NCBI GenBank assembly: GCA_003133325.1
Contig: PKXA01000052.1
Span: forward strand, 19,487-83,486
Origin: Acidimicrobiaceae bacterium
Lineage (GTDB): Bacteria > Actinomycetota > Acidimicrobiia > Acidimicrobiales > RAAP-2
DNA: 64,000 nucleotides
Direction: 5' to 3'
How positions within the stretch are numbered: the first letter of the stretch is position 1; every line of letters begins with the position of its first letter. The position numbers and the translations under genes are program-made. Below, one piece after another: positions 19,362 to 63,288 of the stretch. Below the pieces are notes generated by a model. The model made no database searches. It was given only the letters and a program-made list of their open reading frames with translations, and was not told the origin of the DNA.

Positions 19362-20108
19362 CTACTTGGCGGTGGCGGCTTGGGTGCAGGCGGCCAGGGC
19401 GCTGGGAGTGCCTGTGTAGTAGATCGACCCGGCGATATCCAACCCGTAGGGCCCACCGGTAGGAGCGGTCGGGGTCTGGCCCACCCACAGCGGGGTGGCT
19501 CCGGCAGCAGCTGAGGCTCCGCTCGTGACACCGGCGGCGCTCGTGACACCGGCGCCGGCCCCCACCGTCAGGGTGAATGTCTGGACCACGAACAGCCGGG
19601 GAAACGAATCGAGGCCGCCGATGAATGCGGACATCTGGGCGTAGTCGCCGGTGATGTGCATTTTGACGGGGATCGGGACCACCCCACTGGAGACGGGTGC
19701 TTGGCCCGCTACCGGAGGAGCGGTGGTGGCGGTGGCTCCGGAGGCGCTGTTGCTGGTCCAAGAGAAGGAGGGGATCGAGGTCCCCGACGAACCCACCAGG
19801 GCGGTGAGCTGGTCGTAGAAGGACGACTGCTCAGCGGCAAGGTCTCCCGGGTTCTGAACGCTCGGAATCTGCACCGAGATCTTCTGCAGGACCGCGCACT
19901 TGGCTGGAAGCGTATGCTTTTCCGACTGCAGCCCGGTCAACGTGGCCTGCAGTTGCTGTTGTTGACTCGCCAGCTGTGTCTTTTGCGCGTTCAGGTTGGA
20001 GAGCTTTGAACTCTGAGGTGAGATCAACAGGGCGTACAACAAGATGGCGGCGACGATTCCCACCCCGGCAACCAACAGTGGCCTCTGGTACTCCTTGACG
20101 GTGTTCAT
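19362..20108 (-). CDS. pilO: Type IV pilus inner-membrane protein PilO-like
   Basis: A 248-residue bitopic protein. A single membrane helix spans about residues 11-30 (LLVAGVGIVAAILLYALLIS), followed by a Q-rich coiled coil (residues 35-70) and a C-terminal alpha/beta domain split by an Ala/Thr/Gly-rich low-complexity loop. Size, topology and position directly after the PilM-PilN gene (4-base overlap) identify it as PilO of the pilus alignment complex. VKMHITGDYAQMSAFIGGLD is the PilO core strand-helix. No PilP follows. Confidence 0.82.
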   Translation of the reverse strand: MNTVKEYQRPLLVAGVGIVAAILLYALLISPQSSKLSNLNAQKTQLASQQQQLQATLTGLQSEKHTLPAKCAVLQKISVQIPSVQNPGDLAAEQSSFYDQLTALVGSSGTSIPSFSWTSNSASGATATTAPPVAGQAPVSSGVVPIPVKMHITGDYAQMSAFIGGLDSFPRLFVVQTFTLTVGAGAGVTSAAGVTSGASAAAGATPLWVGQTPTAPTGGPYGLDIAGSIYYTGTPSALAACTQAATAK

Positions 20109-21796
20109 TGCAGGCTCGCATTCTTGGCCAAGCTGGCGAAGGGGGTAACCGAGATCGTGAAGGGGAACGATACGGAACCGTCGGGGTTGGTGGTGATCGA
20201 AGTGGGGACAGGGTTGGCAAACATCTTGGCTGGATCATTGGCGATGGCCTGAGTCCATAGGGAGGGGCTGGTGAGCCCGGGCCCGGGCCCGGTGAGGGCG
20301 GTGGCCACAAAACCGATGGAAGCCGACACGGATGGAGTGGTCGGGGTGGTAACCGGGGTAGTGGCCGGGGTGGTAGCCGTCCCGTTCCCGCTGGTTCCCA
20401 CGAACGACTGCACCTGTAGCCGGGCCGGTGTGATCGAGATCAGGTTGCTGAGGGCCTGGGGCCAGTCGATGGATTGGCCCAGTACATTGGTCCGCCGTGC
20501 CTTCCCCTGGGTGTAGGCGGCGTTGGCGGCCACCACCAAGTTGTATTTGGGTATCTGCGCATTCAGTGTGCCGATGCTGGAGTTGAGAGCGTTCACATCG
20601 TTCTGAGCACTGTGCACTTGGAAGATCTTCCACCCGCCGAAGACGGCGAGCAGTACCACGATGACCGCGGCCACCTGCATCGTTCGCTGTTGGATGTTGT
20701 GGAGCCGGGTTCGCCTGATAATTTCGGGGGGAAGCAGATTGAACTGCTTCACCGCCGGATTGGACTCGGGGAGGGCCAGGCCTATCGGCGTCGAGAGGAC
20801 GGGGCTGACCTCGGCTGCCTGGTCGGGGGTGAGGTCGACCTTGGTGATGTCCAGCCGGTCCAATGGGGAGACCGAATGGACCGGAAGATGGATCTGAGCG
20901 CCCAGCATGGGAATGAAACCGTGGAGAGACGACCCGCCTCCGGTCACCAGGATGCGGGAGACGGGGAGACGACCGGGCAACGACGCGAAGTACTGGATCG
21001 AGTTGCGGATTTCGTTGATCAGATCATCGACAGTCACTTGGATTGACTGCATTGCGGCTTGCACCTGAGGGGTGGAATCCCCCAGGCGGCGTTTGAGCGC
21101 CTCGGCATCGGCCAGGGGCAGGTCGAGAGCGGAGGCGATGGCGGCGGTGGTGGCATTGCCACCTGACCCGATGGTGCGGACGAACTGCGGGCGCCCGTTC
21201 TGATGGATGACCACCACCGTGAGGCCGGCGCCGACCGACACGATGGCTTCGGGTTGGTCGCCGGCCGCACCGTCAAAGATCGCTCGGACCAGAGCGGAGG
21301 ACACCAGGTCCACGCCCTCGACGACCAGCCCGGCGTTCTCGGCCACAGCGACGACTCCTTCGACCAGATCGGCGTGGGCCGCGGCCACCAGTACCCGGCG
21401 CATTTTGGCGCCTTCGGGAGAGGTGTAATCGGAGAGGACCTGCGATGAGAGGATGGTCTTGTCGGGAGGGAAGGGGATGACCTCCTCGGAGTGGAAACGG
21501 ACGGCGCTGTCCACTTCGTTGTCCGGAACGAACGGAAGGTCGATTTCGCGGGTGATGGCCCGAAGTCCGGCAATCCCGACGATCACCGAGGTGGCGGAGA
21601 ACCGACCGTTCTTCCACAGGCGACGCACCGCTTCTGACACAGCGGTGGCATCGTGGATCTCTCCATTGACAACCGAATCCGGCGGCAGTCCGATCTGGCC
21701 GTAGTTGAGGAGTTTGGGTGGCTTCGAACTGACATCGAGCTCAGCAGCGCGGACCGCGCTGGTGCCGATGTCGAGGCCCACGATCAGATCCGCCAT
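20105..21796 (-). CDS. pilM: PilM-PilN fusion protein of the type IV pilus alignment complex
   Basis: A 563-residue protein. Residues 1-345 are PilM: the actin-like ATPase fold with GLDIGTSAVRAAELD as the phosphate 1 motif and LVTGGGSSLHGF as the adenosine motif. From about residue 358 it reads FNLLPPEIIRRTRL, the usual N-terminus of PilN that binds PilM. A membrane helix (about 375-393) and a periplasmic coiled coil and ferredoxin-like domain with a Thr/Pro-rich loop follow. In most species PilM and PilN are separate. Here they are one chain, fixing a 1:1 ratio. PilO overlaps by 4 bases. Confidence 0.88.
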   Translation of the reverse strand: MADLIVGLDIGTSAVRAAELDVSSKPPKLLNYGQIGLPPDSVVNGEIHDATAVSEAVRRLWKNGRFSATSVIVGIAGLRAITREIDLPFVPDNEVDSAVRFHSEEVIPFPPDKTILSSQVLSDYTSPEGAKMRRVLVAAAHADLVEGVVAVAENAGLVVEGVDLVSSALVRAIFDGAAGDQPEAIVSVGAGLTVVVIHQNGRPQFVRTIGSGGNATTAAIASALDLPLADAEALKRRLGDSTPQVQAAMQSIQVTVDDLINEIRNSIQYFASLPGRLPVSRILVTGGGSSLHGFIPMLGAQIHLPVHSVSPLDRLDITKVDLTPDQAAEVSPVLSTPIGLALPESNPAVKQFNLLPPEIIRRTRLHNIQQRTMQVAAVIVVLLAVFGGWKIFQVHSAQNDVNALNSSIGTLNAQIPKYNLVVAANAAYTQGKARRTNVLGQSIDWPQALSNLISITPARLQVQSFVGTSGNGTATTPATTPVTTPTTPSVSASIGFVATALTGPGPGLTSPSLWTQAIANDPAKMFANPVPTSITTNPDGSVSFPFTISVTPFASLAKNASLQ

Positions 21797-22139: not shown

Positions 22140-23240
22140 TCACGGGCGCTGCCCGGTTTGGACGACACCCCGGCGCTCCAGCAGCACCTTGAGGTCGTGG
22201 GGGTTGGTGGCGCTGATCATGGCTTCGCGGACATTGATCACTCCCTCGGCTACCAAGCCGGCCAGAGACTGATCGAATGTCATCATCCCGTAGTACTCCC
22301 CATCAGCGATGATGGCCTCGATATCCGATGTCTGGATCGAATCGATGATGGCCTGTTGGATGCGCCCGTTGGAGACCAGCAGCTCGAGTGCGGGGACCCG
22401 ACCCTTTCCGTCGGCGGTGGGAACCAGTCTCTGACAGATGATCCCCCTTATCGAACCGGCCAGGCTGACCCGGATCTGGTTCTGCTGGTGAGGAGGGAAG
22501 AAGTCGACGATACGGTTTATGGTTTCGGTGGCGTTGATGGTATGCAGGGTCGAGAGCACCAGGTGGCCTGTCTCCGCAGCGGTGAGGGCGGCCGACACTG
22601 TCTCCAGGTCACGCATTTCACCGACGAGGATGACATCAGGGTCTTGACGGAGCACCACCCGCATGGCCGATGAGAAACTGTCGGTGTCGAATCCGACCTC
22701 ACGCTGGTCGATGGTGGCCAGGTCATCAGCATGGTAAAACTCGACCGGATCTTCAATGGTCACCACGTGACAGGCCCGGGTGTGATTGATGTGATCGACC
22801 ATGGCGGCCAGCGTCGTGGTCTTTCCGGATCCCGTCGGACCGGTGACCAACACCAGGCCCCGGTGCTCTTCGGCCAGCCTGGTAATTGTCTCGGGCAGGC
22901 CGAGTTCGGACACGGTAGCCGCATTGGCTCGCACCAGGCGCATGGCCATGGCGACTGACGATCGTTGATAGTAGGCGTTGACCCGAAATCGACCGAGACC
23001 GGGCACGCTGTAGGCAAAGTCGACTTCGTGATGCTTACGGAAGTGCTCGAGAATGCCGGGCTGCATCATCGACTCGGCGAGCGCCAATGTCTCTTCCGCA
23101 GTGAACCGCTGCTCATCGATGAGCGGCCGCAGCGCCCCGGAAATCCGCATGCGGGGCACCGCGCCTGCTTTGACATGAAGGTCTGAACCGTCAAGTTCAG
23201 CAAGCAGAACCAGCAGTCGATCGAGGTCCGCTCTGTCCAC
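22140..23240 (-). CDS. pilT: Type IV pilus retraction ATPase PilT
   Basis: A 366-residue hexameric ATPase. The N-terminal PAS-like domain has DGSDLHVKAG. Walker A is GPTGSGKTTT near residue 130, the Asp box VTIEDPVEF, Walker B ILVGEMRDLETVSAALTAAE, and the His box GHLVLSTLHT. AIRNLI-type C-terminal motif is replaced by NGRIQQAI. PilT drives pilus retraction. GTG 23240 fits the family start; a TTG at 23285 in frame would add 15 residues. Transcribed towards pilMN-pilO. Confidence 0.93.
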   Translation of the reverse strand: MDRADLDRLLVLLAELDGSDLHVKAGAVPRMRISGALRPLIDEQRFTAEETLALAESMMQPGILEHFRKHHEVDFAYSVPGLGRFRVNAYYQRSSVAMAMRLVRANAATVSELGLPETITRLAEEHRGLVLVTGPTGSGKTTTLAAMVDHINHTRACHVVTIEDPVEFYHADDLATIDQREVGFDTDSFSSAMRVVLRQDPDVILVGEMRDLETVSAALTAAETGHLVLSTLHTINATETINRIVDFFPPHQQNQIRVSLAGSIRGIICQRLVPTADGKGRVPALELLVSNGRIQQAIIDSIQTSDIEAIIADGEYYGMMTFDQSLAGLVAEGVINVREAMISATNPHDLKVLLERRGVVQTGQRP

Positions 23241-23341
23241 GTCGGCAGTGTACGGCTGAAACACCCACCGTGCGAGGAGAATCAACGAAGCCGATGGTTC
23301 CCAACGTTTGCGAGACTCACAGTCGTGGTCGGCGAGGACCT

Positions 23342-23686
23342 TCAGTCCGACGGCTTGGGTGAGCTGCTCGAGGTGGAGGCACCATCGGATCCACCCGAAG
23401 ATTTGGAACTGTCCGAAACCGGAGCCTTCGCCGCAGTGGCAGTCGAACTCGTGCTGGACGATTCCTTCGACGACGAGCTGCTTTCAGACGAAGATTTCGA
23501 TGATTCCTTGGGACGGCTGTCGTTCTTGTAGAAGCCGCTTCCCTTGAACACCACGCCCACGTTGCCGAACACCTTGCGCACGGGATTGCCACAAGTGGGG
23601 CACTCGGTGAGGGGATCGTCGTGGAATGACCGGACGACGTCGAAGATCTTATCGCAGTGTGCACAACTATATTCATAAGTGGGCAC
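23342..23686 (-). CDS. FmdB-family zinc ribbon protein
   Basis: A 114-residue protein. The first 50 residues are the FmdB regulatory zinc ribbon: MPTYEYSCAHCDKIFDV and ECPTCGNPVRKVF give the two CxxC pairs, and GVVFKGSGFYKNDSR ends the domain. Residues 65-114 are a Ser-rich, disordered tail. The family is often found next to pilus or molybdenum cofactor genes; its role is unknown. Its start lies next to that of moaC on the other strand. Confidence 0.88.
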   Translation of the reverse strand: MPTYEYSCAHCDKIFDVVRSFHDDPLTECPTCGNPVRKVFGNVGVVFKGSGFYKNDSRPKESSKSSSESSSSSKESSSTSSTATAAKAPVSDSSKSSGGSDGASTSSSSPKPSD

Positions 23687-23807
23687 GCCGGCTGATCCCT
23701 TCGATGTTTTCGCTGCTCCGATTAGCAGTCTAGTGCAGCGAGTGCCAATACTGATTCGGAATCGGGTTGTCCTCTACACTGTCGTCCGTGATCGATCTGA
23801 CCTTGAT

Positions 23808-24293
23808 ATGACCGACCGGAGTCTCAGTCATCTGGACCCTTTGGGTGGGGCCCGCATGGTGGACGTTTCCCCCAAGGAACCCACCCACCGGCGAGCGCTG
23901 GCCCGGTGCCGGGTGGCGATGAAGCCCGAGACCACCTCCAAGGTGGCCAACAACGCCATCACCAAGGGCGACGTACTTGCGGCGGCCCGGGTGGCCGGCA
24001 TTCAGGCAGCAAAACGGACGGCTGACCTGGTGCCCATGTGTCACCCGCTGCTGGTGGGGGCTGTGCACGTCGACTTCACCATCGGTGACGACTACGTCGA
24101 GGTCGAGGCCAAGGTGGAGACAGTCGACCGCACCGGGGTCGAGATGGAGGCCATGACGGCCTGTGCCATCGCCGCCCTCACCGTCTACGACATGTGCAAG
24201 ACCACCGATCGTACGATGAGCATCGGGGAGCTGATGCTGTGGGAGAAGACCGGCGGCAGTTCAGGGATGTGGAAGAGGGAACCTACGGCTTGA
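23808..24293 (+). CDS. moaC: Cyclic pyranopterin monophosphate synthase MoaC
   Basis: A 161-residue enzyme of molybdenum cofactor synthesis that rearranges the MoaA product to cyclic pyranopterin monophosphate. Family motifs: MVDVSPKEPTHRRALA, NAITKGDVLAAARVAGIQAAK, DLVPMCHPLLV (Cys-His-Pro) and DMCKTTDRTMSI near the C-terminus. ATG 23808 agrees with the family start, although the frame is open upstream. moaA and moaE are not in the window. Confidence 0.94.
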   Translation: MTDRSLSHLDPLGGARMVDVSPKEPTHRRALARCRVAMKPETTSKVANNAITKGDVLAAARVAGIQAAKRTADLVPMCHPLLVGAVHVDFTIGDDYVEVEAKVETVDRTGVEMEAMTACAIAALTVYDMCKTTDRTMSIGELMLWEKTGGSSGMWKREPTA

Positions 24294-24329
24294 AGCTGGG
24301 ATGCAGGCGAGATGATCATTGCCCCGCGC

Positions 24330-25541
24330 TCAACGGCGGAACTTGAATCTCTTTCGGGGGTGAGCGGTGAAGAAGTCGGGCGTGATCGGCACCTCGGATG
24401 TGTTCGGCTCATCGGCGGACCGAGCGGCCGTGGCCTCGGATCCGACAGGACCAGATTCCGGCGCGGCATCGGGTGCGGCGGCGAGAATATCGCTCATCAG
24501 AGCCGCGGCGGAAGCGAATGACTGTCCCGACGAACGGAAGAAGTCGGGTTCAAGAAGGTCGGCCGCCGGTTCATCTACCGGCGGGGCTAATGGAGTGGTC
24601 GCGTCTTTGCCCCCAATGGTGATCTTCGCCGTCGGTGTGGGCGCGGTGAGCGGCGCCGGTGGAATTTTCGACTGACCGTCTCCGGTGAGGTCATCAGCCT
24701 TCAATTTGTCCAACGTGGCGTTGAACGAGAACGGAGTTACCGGTTTGGTGACTGGTTGGGATTGAGGTTGAGGATTGACCGGAGCCTTCGGAGCGGCCGG
24801 CGCCTTGTCGTCGAGGAGCGGCGGTACGTAGAAGATCGGTTCGGGTACGAGAGAGGCGGCCAGCTCATTTGCGGCGGCGGCGGCGGCGATATCGATATCG
24901 GCGGTTTCGGTTTCGGCAATCGGGCTGGTGACGTTGGGGGCGCTCGGTGAAACGGCCGGAGACGGAGTCTGGATGGACTCAGCCGGTCGCGGTCGGCCAA
25001 ATTCTTCCCCGAGGAGCCGGTCGAGGGGGCTGAGCGAAGAGCTCGGTCTATTCGAGAGAGATGTATCACCCGACGTGGGGGATACAGGTCCAACTCCACC
25101 TTTTGAAGGTGGAGTTGGAGGTGGCGGAGGCGGGGTTCCCGTCCGAATGGCGGGTCCCGGGGGAGGAGGGGGGGGTGGCGGGGTTCCCGTCCGAAGGGCG
25201 AATCCCGGCGGAGGTGGTGGCGGTGGCGCATCAGCCGGGGGCGAAAGTGCAGTGTGGATCCCGAATCCCGGGGGAGGCGGTGGCGGTGCGGAGCCGGCGA
25301 ATTCAGCGAATCTGGATTGGGCCTGAATCGGCGGCGGCGCTGACGTTGTGGTTGCAGGTGGATGGTCCGAGGAGTCCTTCTGCAACGAGTCGATCTGATC
25401 GGAGAGCACGTCGATGGTGCGAGCAAGCTCACTCTGAGAATTCTTTACCGCCGCCAACTTGGTGGCCAGAGCTTTGGGGGATAGCTCTTCATCCGAAGAG
25501 GTCGTTCGGTCGTCCCCCGAGGCGCGTCCTTTGGTCTTCAT
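24330..25541 (-). CDS. Proline-rich, low-complexity protein in the pilus locus
   Basis: A 403-residue protein with no recognised fold. Residues 20-60 form a coiled coil (LAAVKNSQSELARTIDVLSDQIDSL style heptads). Residues about 70-140 contain three imperfect proline-rich units with runs of 6-8 Pro joined by GF..RTGTP. The rest is acidic with repeated ADLLEPDFF and TPDFFTAHP, both ending in D-F-F, and a basic C-terminus RKRFKFRR. No signal peptide or membrane helix is seen, so it is probably cytoplasmic. GGAGGAG five bases before ATG 25541 sets the start. It could be a hub or scaffold of the pilus machine; that is only a guess from position. Confidence 0.6.
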   Translation of the reverse strand: MKTKGRASGDDRTTSSDEELSPKALATKLAAVKNSQSELARTIDVLSDQIDSLQKDSSDHPPATTTSAPPPIQAQSRFAEFAGSAPPPPPPGFGIHTALSPPADAPPPPPPPGFALRTGTPPPPPPPPGPAIRTGTPPPPPPTPPSKGGVGPVSPTSGDTSLSNRPSSSLSPLDRLLGEEFGRPRPAESIQTPSPAVSPSAPNVTSPIAETETADIDIAAAAAANELAASLVPEPIFYVPPLLDDKAPAAPKAPVNPQPQSQPVTKPVTPFSFNATLDKLKADDLTGDGQSKIPPAPLTAPTPTAKITIGGKDATTPLAPPVDEPAADLLEPDFFRSSGQSFASAAALMSDILAAAPDAAPESGPVGSEATAARSADEPNTSEVPITPDFFTAHPRKRFKFRR

Positions 25542-25702
25542 GAACTCCTCCCCGCTGTGCTCAGCGCCGATCGCAATGAACACCGCCGATACGGGAACAA
25601 CGCACGATCTGCCGAGCCAGTGTATCCGACGTGCCGGCGTGGCACTTATCGCGGAGCGGGCCGAGAAACGAGTTCAATCGAGGCGATACCAGACTGGGAT
25701 TC

Positions 25703-25999
25703 CTAACCCAAGGCGGCGGATCTCAGTTCGTCGAGCGTGAGCTCTGTTGTTGCCTCACCACCACACTGAGCGCAATGTTCCACGTGGCGCCAGCTTCTGA
25801 GGAGACGGGTCCCCTCCGCATTGAGCAGAACCACGAACGATTCCGACATGGGGTCAATCTCCAAACCGAAGCATGGCCTCCACGCCGTCGAGGCCTGTCC
25901 GGCACTCGTATTGAACCCCTTCAGGATTCGCCTGAACCTCGAGTTCTCGAGGTCGACGACCCACGTGCTGTGGCACGACTCAATGACCATGGGTTCCAT
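25703..25999 (-). CDS. Small conserved-looking protein, function unknown
   Basis: A 98-residue protein. IESCHSTWVVDLENSRFRRI at the N-terminus, LLNAEGTRLLRSWRHVEHC in the middle and a CAQCGG pair near the end suggest a small domain. The frame is open far upstream, but the upstream part is low in quality, so I start at ATG 25999 (or 25990). It lies between the proline-rich gene and the prepilin peptidase on the same strand. I do not recognise its function. Confidence 0.5.
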   Translation of the reverse strand: MEPMVIESCHSTWVVDLENSRFRRILKGFNTSAGQASTAWRPCFGLEIDPMSESFVVLLNAEGTRLLRSWRHVEHCAQCGGEATTELTLDELRSAALG

Positions 26000-26225
26000 A
26001 CAGTGATTGTGCCACCCAAATGCCGGATTCAAACTGCAGAATGATTGCGGTCGTGTGACAGTTGCCACCGGGCACAAAGACCAACGGCCGGACCGTTTGT
26101 GGTCATTGAGACAAAACCGACGCTGACCAGGGAACTGTCTACGGCGACGAGACATGCGACCCGCACCCCGACCCCAAAGCGCAATAGCCGTACAACCGCT
26201 ATGAATCTGCTGGTCAGTGGGCTGA

Positions 26226-27035
26226 TCAGGCGAACACAGCGAGACCCACTGCCGTCCCCAGTCCCACCGACACAACCATCGGTAGACCGATCAGGAGTCG
26301 TAGGACTCCCGGGAAAGAGGAAATGGCTGAGTTCTCATGACTTCGGGGGGCAATCTCTCCCGATTTCCGGTTGAGAACGAGGCCAAAGAGGAACACGGCG
26401 AGAAAGACCCCTGCCCCGGTGGCGGCGGGCACGAGTCCGAGCCCTCCGAGCCAACAGCCTGCGGCAATCAGGGCGCTACGGCCGAAACCCTCCCGGCGGC
26501 GGCACTCCGGATCCATTCGTCGCAACGCACTGAAGCCGACGATTCCGGCGAGCGTGCCGGCCTGAGTGCCTATGAGCACCGACCAGTGGCTGCCGGCGGC
26601 GGAAATGATGACGAGGACAACGTCGGCAATGCCTGTTCCCAAGGCCGCCACCAACAACGGTGATCGCAGTTCGCCGGCGTCGATGAGAAGAATCGTGATG
26701 ATGGTGGCGGCCAACAGGCAGTAGGGAATGGTCATCACGGAACCATGCCTGGCCCATGCGATGAGGACAAAGGTCCCAGCGGTGCCCGCTTCCACCAGGG
26801 GGTATCGAACGGAAATTGGCTCATGACAGGTGCGGCACCGACCTCGTAGAGCTATCCACGAGACGATTGGCACGTTTTCCCACCAGGCCAGCTGCCGCTG
26901 ACAGGTCGTACAGAATGATCGGGGTCTGGAGACCGAGAGTCCCCTCGGAACCCGGTAGACGACGACATTGAGGAACGAACCCACCAGCAGCCCAACCACC
27001 AACGCCATTCCGAATATCACTGACAGTGGCACCAT
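26226..27035 (-). CDS. pilD: Prepilin peptidase-like membrane protein (A24 family), second catalytic Asp missing
   Basis: A 269-residue protein with about 7 membrane helices. Two Cys pairs, CTTC and CRTC, flank PIVSWIALRGR, as in the cytoplasmic loop of PilD that also methylates pilins. The first catalytic Asp is in LLIDAGELRS. The second, normally the D of GxGD, is Arg here: EGFGRSALIAAG. Both Asp are needed for cleavage in the family, so this copy may be inactive or the true peptidase may lie elsewhere. Start GTG/ATG at 27035. Divergent from pilB. Confidence 0.8.
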   Translation of the reverse strand: MVPLSVIFGMALVVGLLVGSFLNVVVYRVPRGLSVSRPRSFCTTCQRQLAWWENVPIVSWIALRGRCRTCHEPISVRYPLVEAGTAGTFVLIAWARHGSVMTIPYCLLAATIITILLIDAGELRSPLLVAALGTGIADVVLVIISAAGSHWSVLIGTQAGTLAGIVGFSALRRMDPECRRREGFGRSALIAAGCWLGGLGLVPAATGAGVFLAVFLFGLVLNRKSGEIAPRSHENSAISSFPGVLRLLIGLPMVVSVGLGTAVGLAVFA

Positions 27036-27244
27036 CACGGTGGTTGAGGAGGCGGTTTGAGCGGTCACGATCGGTGTTGGATCCCGAAATTGGCTCTTGA
27101 GCAGGCGGAAGAGAGGTGGCAAGGTGGGGTGCCGCAGAGATGGACCAAGGCCCGCGTAGGGTAGCACTGGGCGCAATCGGTACGTGGGGACATAGGATCC
27201 GAAAACTCCATCTCCGTGGCTCCATCCCTCCGGATGAGGAGGCG

Positions 27245-29746
27245 ATGACAGAACTGGAGGGCAGATTCAATGTTGGCAGCGAGTGTGTCGATGATGAAGT
27301 CATGAGCGATGTCGACGCCATACGCACCCTGGCACGCGAGCGCGACCTCGAGTTTGTCGATCTCGACGCCCAGGTGGTTGATCACGGCGCGGCCGAGATT
27401 CTCCCTGAAGGGGTAGCTCGGCGGCTCCATGTGGTTGCCATCAGCCAGAAGTTCGGGATCCCGGTGATTGCGGTCACCAACCCCGATGACATCTTTATCC
27501 TCGACAACATCCGCGATTCCGTGGGTAGGAACTTCACCCTGGTTGTCGCCCCCCGTGAGCAGATCGTCAGGTACATCGACCGACTCTACGGTGCGTCCCA
27601 TTCGTCCGGACCGGCAACGCCGACGGGTGCCGTTTCCGTTGAGCCCCCGACCCCGCCGACGCCGGCCCCGCTCCCGGCAATCCCGACCCCGTCAGTCGTC
27701 TCGGCAGGCCAGATCGGAACCCCAGCAGTCGAAGGTGCATCGGAATTCTCATTGTACGGATCGGCATTTCTCCCGGAAGAGGGTTCGCCAAGTCAAGAGC
27801 CGCCGAACAATGGACCTGGAGCCCAGTCGATTCCGCCGGCATCAATTGAGATCGGCACCGATCTGACACCATCTCCTGATGCCCTGGCGACCAGTGCCTC
27901 CGAGTTGGCGGAGTTGACGCGCAAGGCATGGTCGGCGGAGCCCACCGAGGGGGTCGATTCGGCAGCGGAGACTGCCGATCTGGTTGACGAGGCGGTGGCA
28001 ACCTTCGAGGGCCAGCATGCCGAACGGGAGTTGATCGCAGGTCTCGGGTCGACGTTGCCGCCGATGGCCAAGGCGCTGATCGAGGGGAATCGGGTGTCCT
28101 TGGCCGACATGCAGCTGGTCCTCGAGGAACACGATCGAAGTGGCCGGAGCATTGCCCGCATCCTGACGGCCAAAAAGCTGGTGACCGAGGCCGACCTCAT
28201 GTGGGGAATGGCTCACGAGATGGGCCTCGAGTTTGTCGATCTCGACATGGCCGGGATCAAATTCGCCGAGTCGGAGATCATCCCCGAGGCAACGGCCCGC
28301 TATCACAACGTGCTGGTCATCTCCGATGACGCCAATGGTCTGGTCGTGGCCGCCTCCAATCCTACCGACGTGTTCGCCATGGACGACCTCCGCACCATCA
28401 TCGGCCGGAGTTTCACAATCGTGGTTGCCACCCGCGGCCAGATCAGCACCTACATCGACCGTGCCTATGGTGCCGGCGACGCCGCGGGCATCGCCGAAAC
28501 AGCCTCACTCCAGTTCGACCGGGAGGAACCCGGTGCCGCCATGGACGACATCCAGGCGGTTACCGAGGACGCCCCGATTGTCCGGTACGTGAACCTTCTG
28601 ATGGTCCAGGCGATCAACGAGCGAGCGTCCGACATCCATGTGGAACCCACCGCCAGCAACCTTCGGATCCGCTATCGCATCGACGGGGTCCTCCATGACA
28701 TGTCGACCGCACCCCGGTCCATCGCTGCCGCAGTTACGACCCGCTTGAAGGTGATGGCCGACATGAACATCGCCGAACACCGGATTCCCCAGGACGGTCG
28801 GATTTCGGTGACGATCGGGAACAAGGAGATCGACCTACGCATGGCGACGTTGCCCACCATCAACGGAGAAAAAATCGTGATGAGGGTACTGGACAAATCG
28901 AGCGTCGTCCTCGGATTTCCCGATCTCGGTTTCGACGACGATCTGTTGGCCACCTACGCGGGGATCTACACCAAGCCCTACGGGACCATTCTGGTCACCG
29001 GCCCCACCGGATCGGGCAAGTCCACCACCCTCTATGCGACGCTCATCGCACTGAACTCACCGGAGAAGAACATCATCACCGTCGAGGACCCGGTGGAGCT
29101 CCAACTGCCGGGGGTCAATCAGATCCAGCTCAATGTGAAGGCCGGCCTGACCTTCGCCTCGGCGCTGAGGTCGATTCTGCGATCCGATCCGGACATTGTG
29201 CTGGTCGGCGAAATCCGGGACAAGGAGACTGCGGTCATCGCCGTCGAGGCCTCCCTCACCGGCCACCTGGTGCTGGCGACCTTGCACACCAATAGCGCTG
29301 CAGCTACGCCGATGCGTCTGGTGGAGATGGGCCTCCAACCCTTCTTGGTCACCTCCTCGCTTACCGGGGTGTTGGCTCAGCGCCTGGCCCGCCGACTCTG
29401 CATCCACTGCAAAGAGGGTTACAACGTCACCGAAGCCGAAATCGCGGTGACAGGATGGAAGGTGGAGGAGATGAAGGCCATTGAGGAGATCAGTGGGAGA
29501 CCTCACTTCTACCGGGCAAAAGGATGCTCCGCCTGTTCGAATACGGGTTACCGGGGCCGGAAGGCCTTGGCGGAGTTGATGCCGATGACCGAAGAGATCA
29601 ACCGCATGATTATTGAAGGAGGATCCGTGGAAGACATTCATCGGTTGGCCGTCTCACAGGGGATGGTCACCTTACGCGAGAGTGGCCTACGTAAAGCAAT
29701 CGAGGGCGAGACGACCCTCGAGGAAGTACTCCGGGTGGTGACATGA
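27245..29746 (+). CDS. pilB: Type IV pilus extension ATPase PilB
   Basis: An 833-residue GspE/PilB ATPase. It has two MshEN-type N-terminal domains: one near residues 20-115 (LEFVDLDAQVVD, VAVTNPDDIF) and one near 295-430 (LEFVDLDMAGIKF, VAASNPTDVF). A Pro/Thr-rich linker joins them. MshEN domains can bind cyclic di-GMP. The ATPase core has GPTGSGKSTTLYA, ITVEDPVE, LVGEIRDKETA and LVLATLHTN. A zinc-binding set follows: CIHC and CSAC. The start is uncertain: ATG 27245 has GAGGAGG only two bases away, and ATG 27302 is the alternative. Confidence 0.9.
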   Translation: MTELEGRFNVGSECVDDEVMSDVDAIRTLARERDLEFVDLDAQVVDHGAAEILPEGVARRLHVVAISQKFGIPVIAVTNPDDIFILDNIRDSVGRNFTLVVAPREQIVRYIDRLYGASHSSGPATPTGAVSVEPPTPPTPAPLPAIPTPSVVSAGQIGTPAVEGASEFSLYGSAFLPEEGSPSQEPPNNGPGAQSIPPASIEIGTDLTPSPDALATSASELAELTRKAWSAEPTEGVDSAAETADLVDEAVATFEGQHAERELIAGLGSTLPPMAKALIEGNRVSLADMQLVLEEHDRSGRSIARILTAKKLVTEADLMWGMAHEMGLEFVDLDMAGIKFAESEIIPEATARYHNVLVISDDANGLVVAASNPTDVFAMDDLRTIIGRSFTIVVATRGQISTYIDRAYGAGDAAGIAETASLQFDREEPGAAMDDIQAVTEDAPIVRYVNLLMVQAINERASDIHVEPTASNLRIRYRIDGVLHDMSTAPRSIAAAVTTRLKVMADMNIAEHRIPQDGRISVTIGNKEIDLRMATLPTINGEKIVMRVLDKSSVVLGFPDLGFDDDLLATYAGIYTKPYGTILVTGPTGSGKSTTLYATLIALNSPEKNIITVEDPVELQLPGVNQIQLNVKAGLTFASALRSILRSDPDIVLVGEIRDKETAVIAVEASLTGHLVLATLHTNSAAATPMRLVEMGLQPFLVTSSLTGVLAQRLARRLCIHCKEGYNVTEAEIAVTGWKVEEMKAIEEISGRPHFYRAKGCSACSNTGYRGRKALAELMPMTEEINRMIIEGGSVEDIHRLAVSQGMVTLRESGLRKAIEGETTLEEVLRVVT

Positions 29747-31353
29747 GCCCCGTCTCGTCGGACGTCCGGGTCGAATGGTCGACCAGATTGGCAGAAGCGC
29801 TGGTTGGCGGTGGCTATGCCGCCGAGTCGGACTTGTCGCCGCTGTTGGCCGAAGCGGAGCTAACGGGCCGACCTTTGGCCACCATCCTGATTGAAAGGCA
29901 GGTGGCAACCCCGGGAGTGGTGGTGGGTGCCCTGGCCCAACTGGCCCATCTGCCGGCGGTCGATCTGTTGTCGGCGGCACCCGAGTCGCATGTATTCGCC
30001 CTCATTCCCGAGGCTGTCGGGCGCAAGTACGAAGCGGTGGCGCTCAAGCGAGATGGGACCCAGTTGGTCGTCGGCTTTGCCGAGCCCCCGACGCCGGAGA
30101 CCGTCGATGCCCTCTCGACCCTCATCGGCTATCGGGTCATGCCGATGCTGGCCGATCCGACCGTTATCGCCCGGGTGTTGTCATCGGGCCCTCTTCGGGT
30201 AGCCACCGATAGCGGAATCTCAGGGGTGAAGGCGGATGAGGAAGATGAGCCGGCCCGGGCGATGCTTCCGATGGCGGCCGATAACGGAATGCCCCTTCAC
30301 ATCGATGACCTGTTGCGCTACGCGGTCTCGGTGGGAGCGTCGGATCTTCACCTGACCGCCGCAATGCCCGGCTGCATCCGACTGAATGGTGCCATCCGCC
30401 AGATCGAGGGCTGTCCAACGTTGGGGAGCGAAACCATTCGAGACATGGCGTTTGGGATCCTCCCGGCAGCGCAGCGCGAGCGATTCGAAGCTGAGCACGA
30501 GTTGGATACCTCACATTCGATCGCCGGCGTTGGCCGCTTCCGGATGAACGTCTCGATGCAACGAGGCACGGTGGCCGTCGCCATGCGCCCGATCCCCCAC
30601 GAAATACCGGTATTCGATTCTCTTGGGATTCCCGAATCGGTCCGGGCCTTCGCTGAACTTCGGAGAGGTCTGGTGCTGGTCACCGGGCCCACCGGTTCAG
30701 GAAAGTCCACCACCCTGGCGTCCTTGGTCGACATCATCAACCGCAGCAAGCCGTTGCACATTGTCACCATCGAGGACCCGATCGAGTTTCTCCATTCCCA
30801 CAAGCGGTCGATCATTGACCAGCGGGAGATCGGCGAGGACACCAGTTCCTTCTCCGAGGCCCTTCGTCGGGTATTGCGTCAGGACCCCGACGTCATTCTG
30901 GTGGGGGAGCTCCGTGACCTCGAGACCATTTCGACGGCCCTGACGGCGGCGGAAACCGGCCACCTGGTGTTCGCCACCCTCCACACCCAAGATGCCGCTT
31001 CGACGGTGGACCGGATCATCGACGTGTTCCCCACGTCTCAACAAGAGCAGATCCGGGTGATGTTGGCATCAACCCTCGAGGGTGTCGTCACTCAGCAGCT
31101 CCTGGTGAACAAAGAGGGGACGGGACGGACAGCCTGCTGTGAGGTTTTGGTCTGCACCACCGGGATCCGGAACCTCATCCGCACGGTCAAGACACATCAG
31201 ATCTACTCGCTGATGCAGACGGGTAGTACGTATGGGATGCAGACGATGGACCAGGGCCTGGCCAAATCGGTACGGGACGGGCTGATCTCCGAGAGTGTGG
31301 CGTTTGATCGCTCTCATAACGAAGACGACCTTCGGGCGCATCTCAACGCCTGA
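29743..31353 (+). CDS. pilT: PilT-like ATPase with N-terminal MshEN domain
   Basis: A 536-residue protein. Residues 1-150 are an MshEN-like domain (LATILIERQVATPGVVVGAL, VVGFAEPPTPETVDAL) not usually present in PilT. Residues 190-536 are a PilT ATPase: GASDLHLTAAMPG, Walker A GPTGSGKSTTLAS, VTIEDPIEFLHS, LVGELRDLETISTALTAAE, HLVFATLHTQDAAST and GIRNLIRTVK, a form of the AIRNLIRE PilT motif. The ATG overlaps the pilB stop. Extension and retraction motors are thus coupled in one operon, and this second PilT could receive a nucleotide signal. Confidence 0.85.
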   Translation: MSPVSSDVRVEWSTRLAEALVGGGYAAESDLSPLLAEAELTGRPLATILIERQVATPGVVVGALAQLAHLPAVDLLSAAPESHVFALIPEAVGRKYEAVALKRDGTQLVVGFAEPPTPETVDALSTLIGYRVMPMLADPTVIARVLSSGPLRVATDSGISGVKADEEDEPARAMLPMAADNGMPLHIDDLLRYAVSVGASDLHLTAAMPGCIRLNGAIRQIEGCPTLGSETIRDMAFGILPAAQRERFEAEHELDTSHSIAGVGRFRMNVSMQRGTVAVAMRPIPHEIPVFDSLGIPESVRAFAELRRGLVLVTGPTGSGKSTTLASLVDIINRSKPLHIVTIEDPIEFLHSHKRSIIDQREIGEDTSSFSEALRRVLRQDPDVILVGELRDLETISTALTAAETGHLVFATLHTQDAASTVDRIIDVFPTSQQEQIRVMLASTLEGVVTQQLLVNKEGTGRTACCEVLVCTTGIRNLIRTVKTHQIYSLMQTGSTYGMQTMDQGLAKSVRDGLISESVAFDRSHNEDDLRAHLNA

Positions 31354-31385
31354 TCCGAAGCAATAACCCTACGGAATGGGGAACT

Positions 31386-32612
31386 GTGTCACTCACGTTC
31401 GAATACAAGGTTCGGGACCAATCGGGAAGCCTGGTCGAGGGGCAGCTCGAGGGCGACAGCATGGCGTTGGTGGTTCGGAAACTGCGCGAGATGGGCTACA
31501 TGCCCATCTCTGTCACTCCGAAGTCCAACGTCAACTTGAGAACCGAGATCAAGATCCCGGGGATCACCGACCGGGTCAAGCTGAAGGAAGTGGCGGTCAT
31601 CACCCGCCAGCTGTCGACCATGGTCGATTCGGGACTGTCGGTGGTTCGCTCCCTCGGGATTTTGGGCGGCCAGGTGGAGAACAAGGAACTGGCCCGGATC
31701 CTTTTGGCGGTGCGCCTCGACGTCGAGCACGGCTCCGCTCTTTCAGTGGCATGTGCCCAACACCCCAAGGTGTTCTCTGAACTGTTCTGCACCCTTGTCC
31801 ACGCCGGCGAAGTCGGAGGCAATCTCGATGAGGTGTTGGGCAACTTGGCCACCACCATCGAGAAGCAGGCCAATCTCAATCGCACGATCCGCTCGGCGAT
31901 GACCTACCCGGCGGTGGTGCTGTCAGTGATGGTCGTCATCTTCACCGCCATGATCCTCTTCATCGTTCCGGTGTTCCAGAATCTCTTCAAGAGCCTGGGC
32001 GGTCAGCTGCCTTTGCCGACCCAGGTCCTCATCGATGTGTCGAAGATCATCTCCAGCCCGTGGGTACTGGTGATCATCGCTGTCATCATCGGGGGCATCT
32101 ACGGTCTGCGGAAGTGGATCGCCACAGACGAGGGAAGAGTCAAGTGGGACCGGCTGATGTTGCGCCCTCCGATCTTCGGGCCGCTGTTCCACAAGGTGGC
32201 CCTGGCTCGAGTCACCTCGACACTCGCCTCGCTGATGAGCTCAGGAGTGCCCATTCTCGAATCCTTGGACATCTGTGCCGACACGGCCGGGAACCGCACG
32301 GTCGGCGATGTACTCCGTCAGGCGAAGGACGGAGTCCGCGAGGGGCGCCCCCTGGCCGATCCACTTCGTGAACACGAGGACGTCATCCCTTCGCTTGTCG
32401 TCCAGATGATCGAAGTGGGGGAACAGACAGGTGCACTCGACTCCATGCTGAACAAGGTGGCCGAATTCTACGACCAAGAGGTCGAGTCGACCGTGAACAA
32501 CATGACGGCTCTGCTCGAGCCGCTGCTCACAGTCGTTATGGGTGCCGGCGTGGGCACCATGGTCATCTGTCTCTATCTACCCATGTTCAGCTACATCAAG
32601 CTGGTCCATTAG
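31386..32612 (+). CDS. pilC: Type IV pilus inner-membrane platform protein PilC
   Basis: A 408-residue protein with two T2SSF domains (FTRQL-like VAVITRQLSTMVDSG at about residue 70, and LARVTSTLASLMSSGVPILE at about 265) and three hydrophobic stretches (near 175-195, 215-235 and 380-400). GTG 31386 is 32 bases after the second PilT. PilC links the motors to pilin assembly. ILEPLLTVVMGAGVG near the end matches the family's last helix. Confidence 0.93.
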   Translation: MSLTFEYKVRDQSGSLVEGQLEGDSMALVVRKLREMGYMPISVTPKSNVNLRTEIKIPGITDRVKLKEVAVITRQLSTMVDSGLSVVRSLGILGGQVENKELARILLAVRLDVEHGSALSVACAQHPKVFSELFCTLVHAGEVGGNLDEVLGNLATTIEKQANLNRTIRSAMTYPAVVLSVMVVIFTAMILFIVPVFQNLFKSLGGQLPLPTQVLIDVSKIISSPWVLVIIAVIIGGIYGLRKWIATDEGRVKWDRLMLRPPIFGPLFHKVALARVTSTLASLMSSGVPILESLDICADTAGNRTVGDVLRQAKDGVREGRPLADPLREHEDVIPSLVVQMIEVGEQTGALDSMLNKVAEFYDQEVESTVNNMTALLEPLLTVVMGAGVGTMVICLYLPMFSYIKLVH

Positions 32613-32833
32613 CCCGGGAGCTGTCGGCGGGGTGGAGATCACCGGTTGCATGGGCAGCTGTCGCGTTTCGTCAGCAGATTTCTACGAAAATGCTGGCAGG
32701 AGCGTTGAACTTCTCCTAAAGTTCTGACATGTAAGTGCCGAAGGTATGGATAGAACCAAAATGAATTGCCCCCGTGGCCAACTCGGATGCGGGGCTCAGG
32801 TCCATTGACCGAAAACCAACATAGGAGGACATC
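32613..32833 (+). other. Long pilA leader region
   Basis: 220 bases between pilC and pilA, more AT-rich than the neighbours. This suggests pilA has its own promoter for high expression, as in other pilus loci. AGGAGG lies just before the pilA ATG. No clear hairpin or known riboswitch motif was found. Confidence 0.4.
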
Positions 32834-33514
32834 ATGTTGTCAAGCCTTATGCGGCGCTTGAACGAGCGGCGTGCCGCTGAGTTCGAGGCAGAAGGATCGG
32901 CTGAAGCCGGTTTCACCCTCATCGAGTTGATGGTCGTGCTGCTCATTCTGGCCATTCTGCTTGCCATCGCCATTCCTACGTTCCTCGGTGTGACGGGTTC
33001 GGCGAATGACCGGGCGGCCCAGTCCAACCTGAACACGGCGCTCACCAATGCGAAGAGCATCTATGAGCAGAACAGCCAGGCGTACCCAACGGGGACTGCG
33101 ACCACGACCTGTGCGGCCGCGGCGACCATCACCAATCTCGCGCTTGCCGTCAGCATTGGATGCAATGAGCCATCGCTCTCCATGAACACAGCCATTACCG
33201 CCGGTGACACCGTCGGGCTTGCGGCTGGGGCCACCGCCGCAATCTCGTCTAACGACGGCAATGGGGCTGTTGTCTATACATTGGCGAAAGCCACCGGTGA
33301 ATGCTGGTGGGTCTCGGACAACCCCGCGACGATCACGGCGAACGGTCCTTGGACCGCCGCAGTTGCCGGCCTCCCCGCCACAGTTGCCGGCGTCCCCGAG
33401 GCCCAAGGGGTGTACTTCGGCGTTTTCAAGGTAGGAACCAACCTGTGCAACCAGGCGGGTCTCCTTGCTGCTCATTCGAACATCGCCACACCGGGATTCC
33501 CCAAGGCAGCGTGA
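32834..33514 (+). CDS. pilA: Type IV major pilin PilA-like
   Basis: A 226-residue prepilin. The 26-residue leader ends in SAEAG, then FTLIELMVVLLILAILLAIA: cleavage after Gly, N-terminal Phe and Glu5 for pilus packing. Four or more Cys in the globular part (TTCAAA, IGCNE, GECWW, NLCNQ) could form two disulfides. ATAGGAGGACATC is a strong ribosome site. Its 3' end is followed by a 14-bp terminator hairpin. Position after pilC and the strong signals suggest it is the main subunit. Confidence 0.93.
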   Translation: MLSSLMRRLNERRAAEFEAEGSAEAGFTLIELMVVLLILAILLAIAIPTFLGVTGSANDRAAQSNLNTALTNAKSIYEQNSQAYPTGTATTTCAAAATITNLALAVSIGCNEPSLSMNTAITAGDTVGLAAGATAAISSNDGNGAVVYTLAKATGECWWVSDNPATITANGPWTAAVAGLPATVAGVPEAQGVYFGVFKVGTNLCNQAGLLAAHSNIATPGFPKAA

Positions 33515-60458: not shown

Positions 60459-61058
60459 ATGGAGCCATGGCGCCAGGTGTTCGAGGGGGCGAAACTGCTC
60501 CGTTTGTTGCTAAAGCTGACGCTCTCATCAGCCGATAACCCACTGGTGCGCACCGGCCAAAAGTTTGTGAGGCATGAAATTTCGGATGCCGGGGTGTCAC
60601 TCATCGAAGTGATGGTGGCCATCACTGTTCTGGTCATCGTCCTTGTGCCCGCATTGTTGCTGGTCACAAGATCGACCAGAGCCGTCTACAACAATCAGTT
60701 CAAAGTGACCGCAGCCAGCCTCGCGAGCGGCCAGCTCGAAGCGGACCGCGCCTTGGCAGTCGAACGGACATTGCCCACACCGGCGTCATCCCCGCCGCAG
60801 GCTATCGGCGGGCCGACTATCGGCTCAGAGACCTACTCGATCACCCAGACGGCCGGTTGGTGCGTGCCACCCACCACCTCCAACGGGTCCTGGGCATCCT
60901 TCACGTCCACAGGTAGTTCGTACGCCTACGGCGTCGTGGTGAAGGTGACGTGGAAGGAAGACTCCACTGGAGTCCAAGTAGCCGGCGTGCTCACCACCCC
61001 GCAAGGGATGTTCGCCCCAGGGGCATACCCACCGTTCACAACGAACTGCCCACTATGA
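60459..61058 (+). CDS. Minor prepilin, PilV-like
   Basis: A 199-residue prepilin. A long 48-residue leader ends in ISDAG, followed by VSLIEVMVAITVLVIVLVPA: cleavage after Gly, Glu5 present. The globular part is beta-rich and short. ATG 60459 is preceded by GAGGG. It is the first gene of a three-gene operon; its stop overlaps the next start (ATGA). PilV-type proteins prime pilus assembly. Confidence 0.85.
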   Translation: MEPWRQVFEGAKLLRLLLKLTLSSADNPLVRTGQKFVRHEISDAGVSLIEVMVAITVLVIVLVPALLLVTRSTRAVYNNQFKVTAASLASGQLEADRALAVERTLPTPASSPPQAIGGPTIGSETYSITQTAGWCVPPTTSNGSWASFTSTGSSYAYGVVVKVTWKEDSTGVQVAGVLTTPQGMFAPGAYPPFTTNCPL

Positions 61059-61711
61059 CCAAGGCTCCCTCTACGCGGTGCGCAACACGTGACGACTCGG
61101 GCATGTCGCTTGTCGAGTTGATGGTCGCCATGACGTTGTTCGTCGTGGTGATGACAATCGGTTTTGTTGTGACGAGCACCGTGGTGAGAGTTACCTACAG
61201 CACTCAACGCAGCGGGTTTCTCACCGGTCCGGCTCAAAACGGGATGGAGACACTCCAGGGGTTCTTTTCCGGAGCGGTTCCCAACCAGACGATCTCCACT
61301 CCAAGTGGGCCAAACCTCTATGTCAATCAGTGCTCGGTCACGGCTCTCACCAGCACCGCAACCGACGTCTGGCTATGTGCCGTGCGCTCTGGCTCCAACA
61401 CCGCGTACAGCTACGAGATCCACTTCCCGAGTTCGACCTGTACTCCCAACGGCATCTGCACCCTGCAAATCGACCAGCAAGGTTCGGCCCAGCCGGTCGC
61501 GCAAATCGACAACGTGTGTGCACATTGTGCCAACGCGACAAATACGTCGTTCGGATTCACGCCCACGCCCGCCGATCTGTCCGTAATCCCTTTGGTGGCC
61601 ATCACGCTCACCATTGCCGCCCCAACTACTAACGGGAACGCCAATCCGTCCACGACCACCACGGTTGTTCGTCAAGTCATGTTGTCCAACTCTTTGGGAG
61701 GACTCCTATGA
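61055..61711 (+). CDS. Minor prepilin, PilW-like
   Basis: A 218-residue prepilin with leader ending DDSG and MSLVELMVAMTLFVVVMTIG after it (Glu5 present). It has Cys residues in NQCSVTALTS, LCAVRSG, STCTPNGICT and NVCAHCAN, suggesting disulfide-linked loops. It overlaps the upstream prepilin and the downstream glycine-rich protein by 4 bases each, so the three are translated as a unit. Confidence 0.85.
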   Translation: MTKAPSTRCATRDDSGMSLVELMVAMTLFVVVMTIGFVVTSTVVRVTYSTQRSGFLTGPAQNGMETLQGFFSGAVPNQTISTPSGPNLYVNQCSVTALTSTATDVWLCAVRSGSNTAYSYEIHFPSSTCTPNGICTLQIDQQGSAQPVAQIDNVCAHCANATNTSFGFTPTPADLSVIPLVAITLTIAAPTTNGNANPSTTTTVVRQVMLSNSLGGLL

Positions 61712-63288
61712 CGCGGCACACCTGGCGCACCATGCCGATGAAAGAGAGTATGAGGCAGCAGGCCACCGACCTGGGCCAGGCCATGCTCTTGGTCATCGCT
61801 CTGATCGCGATACTCGTCGCAGTGCCGGTTGCGATCAGCGTCCTGGCTGTGGGCCAGGTATCTACCAGCGAGAATGCTGCCTTGATGGTTCAGGCCAAGC
61901 AGGCCGCCCAGGCCGGGATCAGCGACTACATAAATTACGTCCAGGCTGACTCGACGTACACCAAGTACTGCAGTAGTGGAATGACCAGCGGAGCAACACA
62001 GTGGGCATGCCCTGGATCGACGTCGCCCGCGCCGACGCTGACCAATCCCGCGTTCGTCAATTCGCCCACCTTGGCAGGAAAGTGGTATTCCGACGGTTCG
62101 ACGATGCGAGGTGTCGCAAATGGGACCCCGTCGTACCGTTACGTAGTCAATTCTCCCAATACGGCCAATCCGGCCCTGGTCCTCATCTACTCCATCGGCC
62201 AGGCAGGGACGGCCGCAGGCCAGCACGTGTCTGCCACCGAGGCAGCCGCTCTGACCGTCTGCGCCTCCGGCTGCTTGACTCCGACAGCCGGAGTGTCGTG
62301 CATCAAAGTTCCCAACAGAGCGGTGAGCGCCAAAATTGTCGCCTACGGGGCACAAGGTGGGGGTGGTGGGTCGGATGCAGCGGGAGGTGTTGGCGCACTA
62401 TTGACCGCCACGGTGCTGGTGACCGCGGGGCACACGCTGGACACCTATCCGGGTCAACCCGGGCAGGCCGGCAACCCGCAGCTACTCAATCTTCTCGACC
62501 TGTTGGCCGGCGCCGGTGGTGCCGGCGGAGTGCCACTATCGGGAGCGTGTCCATTACCCCAGACTTATTCGCCGCCGGACCTGGGTGGAGGCAACGGTGC
62601 CCTGCCTGGCGGCCTTGCCGACGTCCTCACTGACGGCGGCGGTGGGGGGGGAGGGGCAACGATGGTCTTCGACGCCACCGCCACAACCAACAATATGGTC
62701 GCGGTAGCCGGCGGCGGTGGCGGGGGAGGAGCCGGGGACCTCTTGCAATTTCTGGGCGGCCCGCCCGGTGCCGGTGGCTCAGCCGGTAGCAGCCCACCGG
62801 GATCGGGCGGAACGGCCGCCGGTCTCCTCTTGGTGTTTCCCGCCGCACCGGGAGGAACGGGCGGTACCTGGGCAGTTCCGCCAGGTCCGGGGCTGTGCGC
62901 ATCGACGACCGTTGCCGGTGGAACAGGAACGGCGCCTGGCAATGCCTGCGGTCAAAACGGGTATCTCCCCACCAATCTCCTCGGTGCGCTCACCGGTGGA
63001 GGAGGAGGAGGAGGTGGTGGCTATAGCGCCTCGTCACTCGGCGGAGGCGGCGGCGGGACCACTGGTGGCCTCCTTGGCATTGCCGTCGGCTCGGGAGGCG
63101 GCGGCGGCGCCGGCTATTCCTATGCGAACAATGGGCCATGTCCCGCGCCCACGATTGTTCCCGCTGCCTACCCGACGGGCGACACCACTGGAGCCGGCCA
63201 GATCTCGATCACCTTCTTTGCCGGAGCTTGCGGCACCAACCCGCTCACCACGGTCACCGGGACTATTCGTGCCGCCGCGGCTCCGTAG
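61708..63288 (+). CDS. Pilin-like protein with a large glycine-rich domain (ALK/LTK-type), probable pilus tip protein
   Basis: A 526-residue protein. Near the N-terminus (ATDLGQAMLLVIALIAILVA) it has a pilin-like hydrophobic helix after a Gly, but no Glu at position 5, as in PilX/GspK. Residues 40-200 resemble PilX. From about 205 a glycine-rich domain begins: AYGAQGGGGGSDAAGG, then GHTLDTYPGQPGQAG, TDGGGGGGGATMVFD, VAVAGGGGGGG and GSGGGGGAGYSY. This pattern matches the ALK/LTK glycine-rich domain (PF12810-like) with alternating VxGAqGG, VGqkG and GGGGGATd elements. It is the last gene of the minor-pilin operon, and its 3' end overlaps the convergent hydrolase gene by 26 bases. Confidence 0.75.
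   Translation: MTRHTWRTMPMKESMRQQATDLGQAMLLVIALIAILVAVPVAISVLAVGQVSTSENAALMVQAKQAAQAGISDYINYVQADSTYTKYCSSGMTSGATQWACPGSTSPAPTLTNPAFVNSPTLAGKWYSDGSTMRGVANGTPSYRYVVNSPNTANPALVLIYSIGQAGTAAGQHVSATEAAALTVCASGCLTPTAGVSCIKVPNRAVSAKIVAYGAQGGGGGSDAAGGVGALLTATVLVTAGHTLDTYPGQPGQAGNPQLLNLLDLLAGAGGAGGVPLSGACPLPQTYSPPDLGGGNGALPGGLADVLTDGGGGGGGATMVFDATATTNNMVAVAGGGGGGGAGDLLQFLGGPPGAGGSAGSSPPGSGGTAAGLLLVFPAAPGGTGGTWAVPPGPGLCASTTVAGGTGTAPGNACGQNGYLPTNLLGALTGGGGGGGGGYSASSLGGGGGGTTGGLLGIAVGSGGGGGAGYSYANNGPCPAPTIVPAAYPTGDTTGAGQISITFFAGACGTNPLTTVTGTIRAAAAP

Follow-up and report, generated by a model that had tools for sequence, protein, structure and literature searches.

A PilX-like minor pilin fused to a predicted ALK/LTK-type glycine-rich domain in Acidimicrobiales

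Introduction

PilX and GspK lack the glutamate at position 5 (Glu5) and have been assigned the topmost position in the minor pilin complex (PMC7541494). Modular pilins, in which grafted binding modules are established and likely tip-exposed, include PilB of Streptococcus sanguinis, with a vWA module, and PilC of the same species, with a lectin module; GspK, likewise without Glu5, was treated as a modular case, and the published census counted a protein as a modular pilin only if it bore the IPR012902 signature (PMC8179133). A further parallel comes from phage fibres: gp24 of phage Pam3 combines a conserved glycine-rich stem, whose domain resembles the ALK ectodomain, with a hypervariable tip for which host-receptor recognition has been proposed (PMC9608196).

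Here we describe a gene in a window of 64,000 nucleotides (the whole stretch of DNA analysed, from an Acidimicrobiaceae genome of the order Acidimicrobiales) whose product joins a PilX-like N-terminus to a C-terminal domain of predicted ALK/LTK type. The modular-pilin idea is already known; a pilin carrying an ALK/LTK-type module was not found in the literature searched (exclusive of preprints, most subscription journals and supplements), in agreement with a sequence-only reading of the locus that knew of no such pilin.

Results

The sequence-only reading had placed the fusion frame last in a PilV-PilW-type operon, and it is indeed the third gene, ATGA-coupled to two prepilins that possess Glu5 (Table 1). 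The overlaps, read in the sequence at 61055-61058 and 61708-61711, join all three genes, the fusion's ATG lying within the ATGA shared with the stop of the pilW-like gene, so that the pilV-pilW-X genes are probably co-translated. The pilV-like product also matches the PilV model TIGR02523 (E 3.4e-5, below the cut-off). The fusion protein begins ...TDLG/QAMLLVIALIAILVAVPVA, the putative leader ending at G23 before QAMLL, and because residue +5 is Leu it lacks Glu5; the pilin-like helix of GspK/PilX character proposed from the letters is thereby borne out, PilX_N being the best Pfam match of its family. Pfam and TIGR profile searches found no N_methyl, TIGR02532 or IPR012902 signature in the protein. 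The same reading had some 320 glycine-rich residues follow the helix; the domain is there, TNF-like strands included, but about 130 residues of pilin-type headgroup intervene. Two Cys, one Trp and a G-x-A/S-G element are conserved in this headgroup across the fusion clade, with C72, C85, W110, G148 and G151 invariant (numbering of alignment A8).

Table 1. Features of the fusion gene, its operon and the type IV pilus core in the window. A slash marks the end of the prepilin-type leader.
Feature	Position	Strand	Basis
PilX-like/glycine-rich fusion gene, 526 aa, third in operon	61708..63288	+	ORF reading
Fusion leader, prepilin-type, 23 aa, last residue Gly23	61708..61776	+	read in sequence
Hydrophobic long N-terminal helix, residues 24-68, PilX/GspK-like, without Glu5	61777..61911	+	family alignment A1, PilX_N, AF2
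Headgroup and linker, pilin-type, residues 69-190	61912..62277	+	alignment A8; structure low-confidence
Predicted ALK/LTK-type TNF-like + glycine-rich domain, residues about 197-508	62296..63231	+	profiles, shuffles, AF2 model
pilV-like minor prepilin, DAG/VSLIE, Glu5 present	60459..61058	+	N_methyl 23.8 bits, above cut-off
pilW-like minor prepilin, DSG/MSLVE, Glu5 present	61055..61711	+	N_methyl 26.4 bits, above cut-off
PilO	19362..20108	-	PF04350
PilM	20105..21796	-	PF11104
PilT-type ATPase	22140..23285	-	PF00437
Prepilin peptidase	26226..27176	-	PF06750
PilB-type extension ATPase (MshEN + T2SSE)	27116..29746	+	domain profiles
Second T2SSE/MshEN ATPase	29743..31353	+	domain profiles
PilC platform protein	31386..32612	+	PF00482
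Major pilin, classical, AG/FTLIELMVVLLILAILLAIAIPTFLG	32834..33514	+	N_methyl 32 bits

A full type IVa pilus core (19362-33514) lies within the same window, about 30 kb from the fusion gene. Two adjoining MshEN/T2SSE ATPases (27116-31353; 876 and 536 aa) stand there besides the separate PilT-type ATPase. The fusion-bearing genome (G000) also encodes another pilV-pilW-X operon, on contig 77, whose third protein (1137 aa) carries bacterial Ig-like repeats (PF16640) and no glycine-rich domain. PilV-like proteins (920-1025 aa) that contain numerous SCPSxxxCxAxG repeats in tandem are encoded on that contig (L146:505-3273, G000:C77) and in the sister species G004 (L114:8982-12056, G004:C110), and similar repeats follow the glycine-rich domain of a secreted protein at locus L005; such PilV-like proteins appear to represent a second modular pilin kind, invisible to Pfam.

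Queried with residues 1-189, 30 of the 298 genomes of the order gave matches, and in most loci read pilV/pilW-type prepilin genes adjoin the match on the same strand. The frames of this family vary in length between about 350 and 2000 residues. A profile built from 26 members (A1), with the consensus E-x-G-Q-A-M ... A-L-x-A-A-x-A-G-x-x-D-Y, finds the family in 105/395 genomes of the class. More members match PilX_N (PF14341) than any other Pfam family (8/26, best E 3.9e-7); the fusion itself scores 10.5 bits (E 0.61, against a curated cut-off of 25.5 bits) and a clade sibling 22.5 bits. On this sequence evidence, the N-terminus of the fusion belongs to a large PilX-like family found after pilV/pilW in relatives, and the homologue survey suggested by the sequence-only reading came out in its favour, with pilV/pilW genes usually upstream where flanks were read. 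That the fusion works outside the pilus, as a surface protein, secreted or anchored in the membrane, that simply happens to begin with a helix, is distinctly improbable: the N_methyl/IPR012902 signature is absent and the order's glycine-rich domain proteins are mostly ordinary secreted ones, including one (C108) in the same genome, but the fusion is the ATGA-coupled third gene behind two clear prepilins, its PilX_N-like N-terminal family tracks pilV/pilW-like genes in many genera, and its pilin-type headgroup is conserved within the fusion clade.

Many PilX-like third-gene proteins (at L056, L060, L067, L071, L114:12883-15204 and L146:4043-7453) share another large C-terminal domain, with the motif LGLIAQNxV ... 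IDAAILAL ... GSIAQNFRGPVG. Inserted Ig-like repeats aside, the members tested matched no Pfam family at E<=0.01, and this domain is possibly an undescribed pilus domain.

Of the 74 PilX-like proteins of which 250 residues or more were read, eight have a glycine-rich C-terminus, and they come from seven genomes (G000, G020, G122, G156 with two, G187, G237 and G257). In a tree of the N-terminal parts they form one group (support 99/93), and a single change suffices for the fusion trait in 98% of bootstrap trees. Profile A8, made from the clade's pilin part and the start of the domain, retrieved full-length matches (E<1e-58) in five further genomes that took no part in building it: G605, G619, G634, G648 and G667. 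Where the flanks were read, pilV- and pilW-like genes accompany the fusion in G605, G634 and G648, the glycine-rich part in G634 being assigned from the A8 match and not seen in the flank reading; in G619 and G667 the flanks are cut off or the motif scan recognised no such genes. The fusions thus occur in 12 genomes, spread over four of the order's families (f1, f16, f43, f45), and 396 genomes sampled from the phylum yielded no other full-length A8 match. By sequence, the combination of pilin and glycine-rich domain is a distinct, recurrent clade. At L076:1809-5786 (G156:C98), the fusion frame apparently shifts in the second glycine-rich part and is arginine-rich afterwards, as would follow from a frameshift or an assembly error.

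Closer to home, the operon is patchy. In the sister species G004, the genes on either side share 86-91% identity with those of the window, and the roughly 3 kb between them has shrunk to about 0.55 kb that retains a 69% identical trace of the domain end, with two in-frame TAG codons; comparison of the two loci indicates that the operon is deleted there, leaving a remnant. G004 retains an operon of the other (non-glycine-rich) kind about 16 kb away. The G001 contig starts inside the domain's end, and G002 and G003, whose genomes are less complete, gave no operon match. Largely deleted in one relative and not found in two others, the operon is therefore dispensable. This loss of about 3 kb, the missing matches and a consensus promoter scan with no sites beyond chance could point to a decaying or rarely used relic. 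That reading is nevertheless very improbable, as the three genes of the window are intact and overlapping with normal codon use, and the second operon, of another kind (C77), persists together with the first.

We next consider the C-terminal part, whose composition (29% Gly, 15% Ala and 10% Thr over residues 200-526) calls for controls. PF12810 matches residues 209-475 with 24.3 bits (E 3.6e-5), 0.2 bits short of the curated cut-off of 24.5, and eight decoys (residue shuffles, shuffles preserving glycine runs, reversal) gave no Pfam match at E<=10, so that the PF12810 check proposed beforehand spoke for the domain. Pfam scores of such proteins are strongly lowered by composition correction, and the cut-off is insensitive here, because the textbook secreted glycine-rich domain of C108 likewise reaches 12.8 bits with Pfam, against 91.9 with a local profile. 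This profile, whose only members are 14 secreted glycine-rich proteins from the order, is independent of the fusion domain, which scores 33.1 bits against it after composition correction; the best of 200 shuffles preserving glycine runs scored -1.8 (0/200 reach the native score), and a repeat gave 32.9 for the native sequence and -7.2 for the best shuffle. Finally, a profile of the fusion domain with five bacterial domains matches LTK/ALK crystal chains at E 5.5e-9 to 1.1e-7, a result that, with already recognised members dominating the profile, speaks for the family as a whole.

Strand motifs flank the domain (VPxxxVxAxIxAYGAQGG at its start, GxGQIxIT at its end), and both align with bacterial and phage domains. 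The alternating pattern reported from the letters was partly right: VxGAqGG (as VAYGAQGG) and GGGGGAT are present, but 'VGqkG' is absent, the equivalent stretch reading YPGQPG. Single domains from G020, G619, G648 and G667 each scored better than 200/200 shuffles, and the first local-profile test was not significant for two fusions (L055, L061). PF12810 gave no match for six other fusions, an insensitivity of the model that the local-profile tests bring out. A quick PF12810 search of the fusion's own genome likewise returned nothing, though the fusion and C108 carry the domain, so that order-wide PF12810 counts are lower bounds; by these, relatives in the order that have the domain alone are mostly secreted and have no pilin helix. 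C108 itself (L218:4343-5236, G000:C108, at a contig end) is a secreted non-pilin protein, and a possible source of the fusion's glycine-rich module.

Wider searches added little. A PDB sequence search with a single fusion domain gave one chance match only, PHROGs nothing useful, tblastn against plasmids no match and profile A2 no viral contig. Profile A5 found 21 relatives in viral contigs, used only as alignment rows for structure prediction, and scanning genome contigs with the whole fusion protein returned one secreted Crocinitomix protein. Alignment A3, out of register in its central region, was excluded from folding.

AlphaFold2 was run without templates on residues 191-515 with 17 aligned bacterial and phage relatives, giving a model (mean pLDDT 58.5, pTM 0.64) in which confidence is good for the TNF-like strands but not for the glycine-rich loops (pLDDT mostly below 60). 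The first 21 PDB matches returned by Foldseek are all ALK or LTK. VIA-align gave Z 11.9 over 192 residues to ALK (7NX3), followed by the Pam3 phage fibre and the Bxb1 tail tip at about 9, and the model also matches many viral glycine-rich proteins. The alignment rows, being other glycine-rich domains, may have steered the model; the sequence tests are independent of it. A full-length model has one helix at residues 12-68, a weakly predicted headgroup and then the same domain. Structure prediction thus favours the earlier proposal, with TNF-like strands whose best matches are ALK/LTK and a low-confidence glycine part.

Together, the profile scores, the LTK/ALK chain matches and the structural alignment agree with the ALK/LTK assignment made by the sequence-only reading, and residues of about 197-508 are predicted to form a TNF-like plus glycine-rich (TG) domain of that type. 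A disordered, PE_PGRS-like stretch of glycine low complexity, resembling ALK in composition and not in fold, would fit the 29% glycine and the low AlphaFold2 confidence in the glycine-rich part. Shuffles retaining every glycine run nevertheless fail completely, the flanking strand motifs align with those of bacterial and phage domains, the predicted strands match ALK/LTK, and Pfam found no PE domain where TNF-like strand motifs are present; we give this explanation almost no credence. The further argument that the domain binds ligands in ALK/LTK was too simple. The binding unit of these receptors is the combined TNF-like and glycine-rich module, so homology to it does not on its own imply that a protein ligand is recognised.

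Discussion

Judged from sequence and model, the fusion appears to be a pilus-tip-type subunit whose outer half is a glycine-rich domain as in ALK/LTK and phage tail-fibre tips. It resembles PilX/GspK (PF14341) in its gene position behind pilV and pilW, its lack of Glu5 and its long helix followed by A-x-x-A-A-x-A-G, but differs in having no significant PilX_N match of its own and a large foreign C-terminal domain. Like modular pilins (PMC8179133), it has a pilin module followed by a bulky C-terminal module that is not pilus-specific, here a helix and headgroup and then a separate glycine-rich domain; unlike S. sanguinis PilB and PilC, its module is of ALK/LTK type and its N-terminus is PilX/GspK-like, without Glu5 or IPR012902. 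Since the published survey required that signature, the fusion could not be listed in it. The missing signature weakens its membership by the survey definition, not the case that it works like a modular pilin. The ALK/LTK TG ectodomain (PF12810; 7NX1, 7NX3, 7LRZ) provides the best structural matches and a significant profile match, although the fusion is bacterial, sits on a pilin and has no kinase, EGF-like or MAM parts. Phage fibre tips (Pam3 gp24, PMC9608196; S16 gp38) share the glycine-rich stem, the variable loops and, presumably, a place at the far end of a thin appendage; unlike the fusion as known from sequence, they are trimeric virion proteins assembled with chaperones.

These comparisons lead us to favour, with reasonable though not high confidence, a modular minor pilin of PilX/GspK type that presents a binding module like those of phage fibres at, or close to, the end of the pilus. 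Tip placement follows by analogy with PilX/GspK (PMC7541494), and an adhesive role by analogy with modular pilins (PMC8179133) and phage fibre tips (PMC9608196); leader processing, tip position, binding and the class of ligand are all features that we infer. The prepilin peptidase of the window would cut the leader after Gly23, and the helix would pack into the type IVa pilus core with the co-translated PilV- and PilW-like subunits. Because it lacks Glu5 and carries a bulky C-terminal module, the subunit would fit most easily at the tip or close to it, and there it may help to start the filament. The module would form a stiff bundle of glycine-rich stretches with variable loops at its outer end, and these loops would bind a surface or cell partner, allowing the pilus to attach and pull.

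Alternatively, the domain could be a structural spacer or assembly platform, a rigid cap that raises or shields the tip complex or aids wall crossing and has no specific ligand. In the other branch of the family this N-terminus is joined to large C-terminal domains of quite another sort, so bulk may outweigh the particular module, and several fusions have two or three tandem domain copies, as expected of a spacer. We nonetheless consider this unlikely: the grafted pilin modules known so far mostly bind ligands (PMC8179133), receptor binding has been proposed for this fold at the tips of phage fibres (PMC9608196), and the loops between the glycine stretches vary in length and sequence, as expected of a binding surface. 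The fusion is thus probably a pilus adhesin, by analogy with these systems, of a kind not described in the literature searched.

A broader scenario, which we regard as speculative and rather doubtful, is that a pilus lineage adopted the receptor-binding architecture seen in phage tail-fibre tips and in ALK/LTK, so that an exchangeable tip subunit with a rigid stem and diversifying loops sets attachment. No PilY1 was found by a search in which no control gave a signal either, and specificity might change as the module is duplicated in tandem and the operon is gained or lost.

Collectively, the fusion connects work on type IV pilus tip subunits, on the host-range domains of phages and on the ALK/LTK ectodomain, three separate fields. 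The census demanded a classical prepilin signature that the fusion lacks, and may therefore have overlooked a class of modular pilins. The protein offers a direct test of whether the glycine-rich fold serves as a general tip-mounted recognition module, and it is a bacterial relative of a medically interesting receptor domain. For the organisms themselves, it predicts what members of this uncultured lineage may use for attachment.
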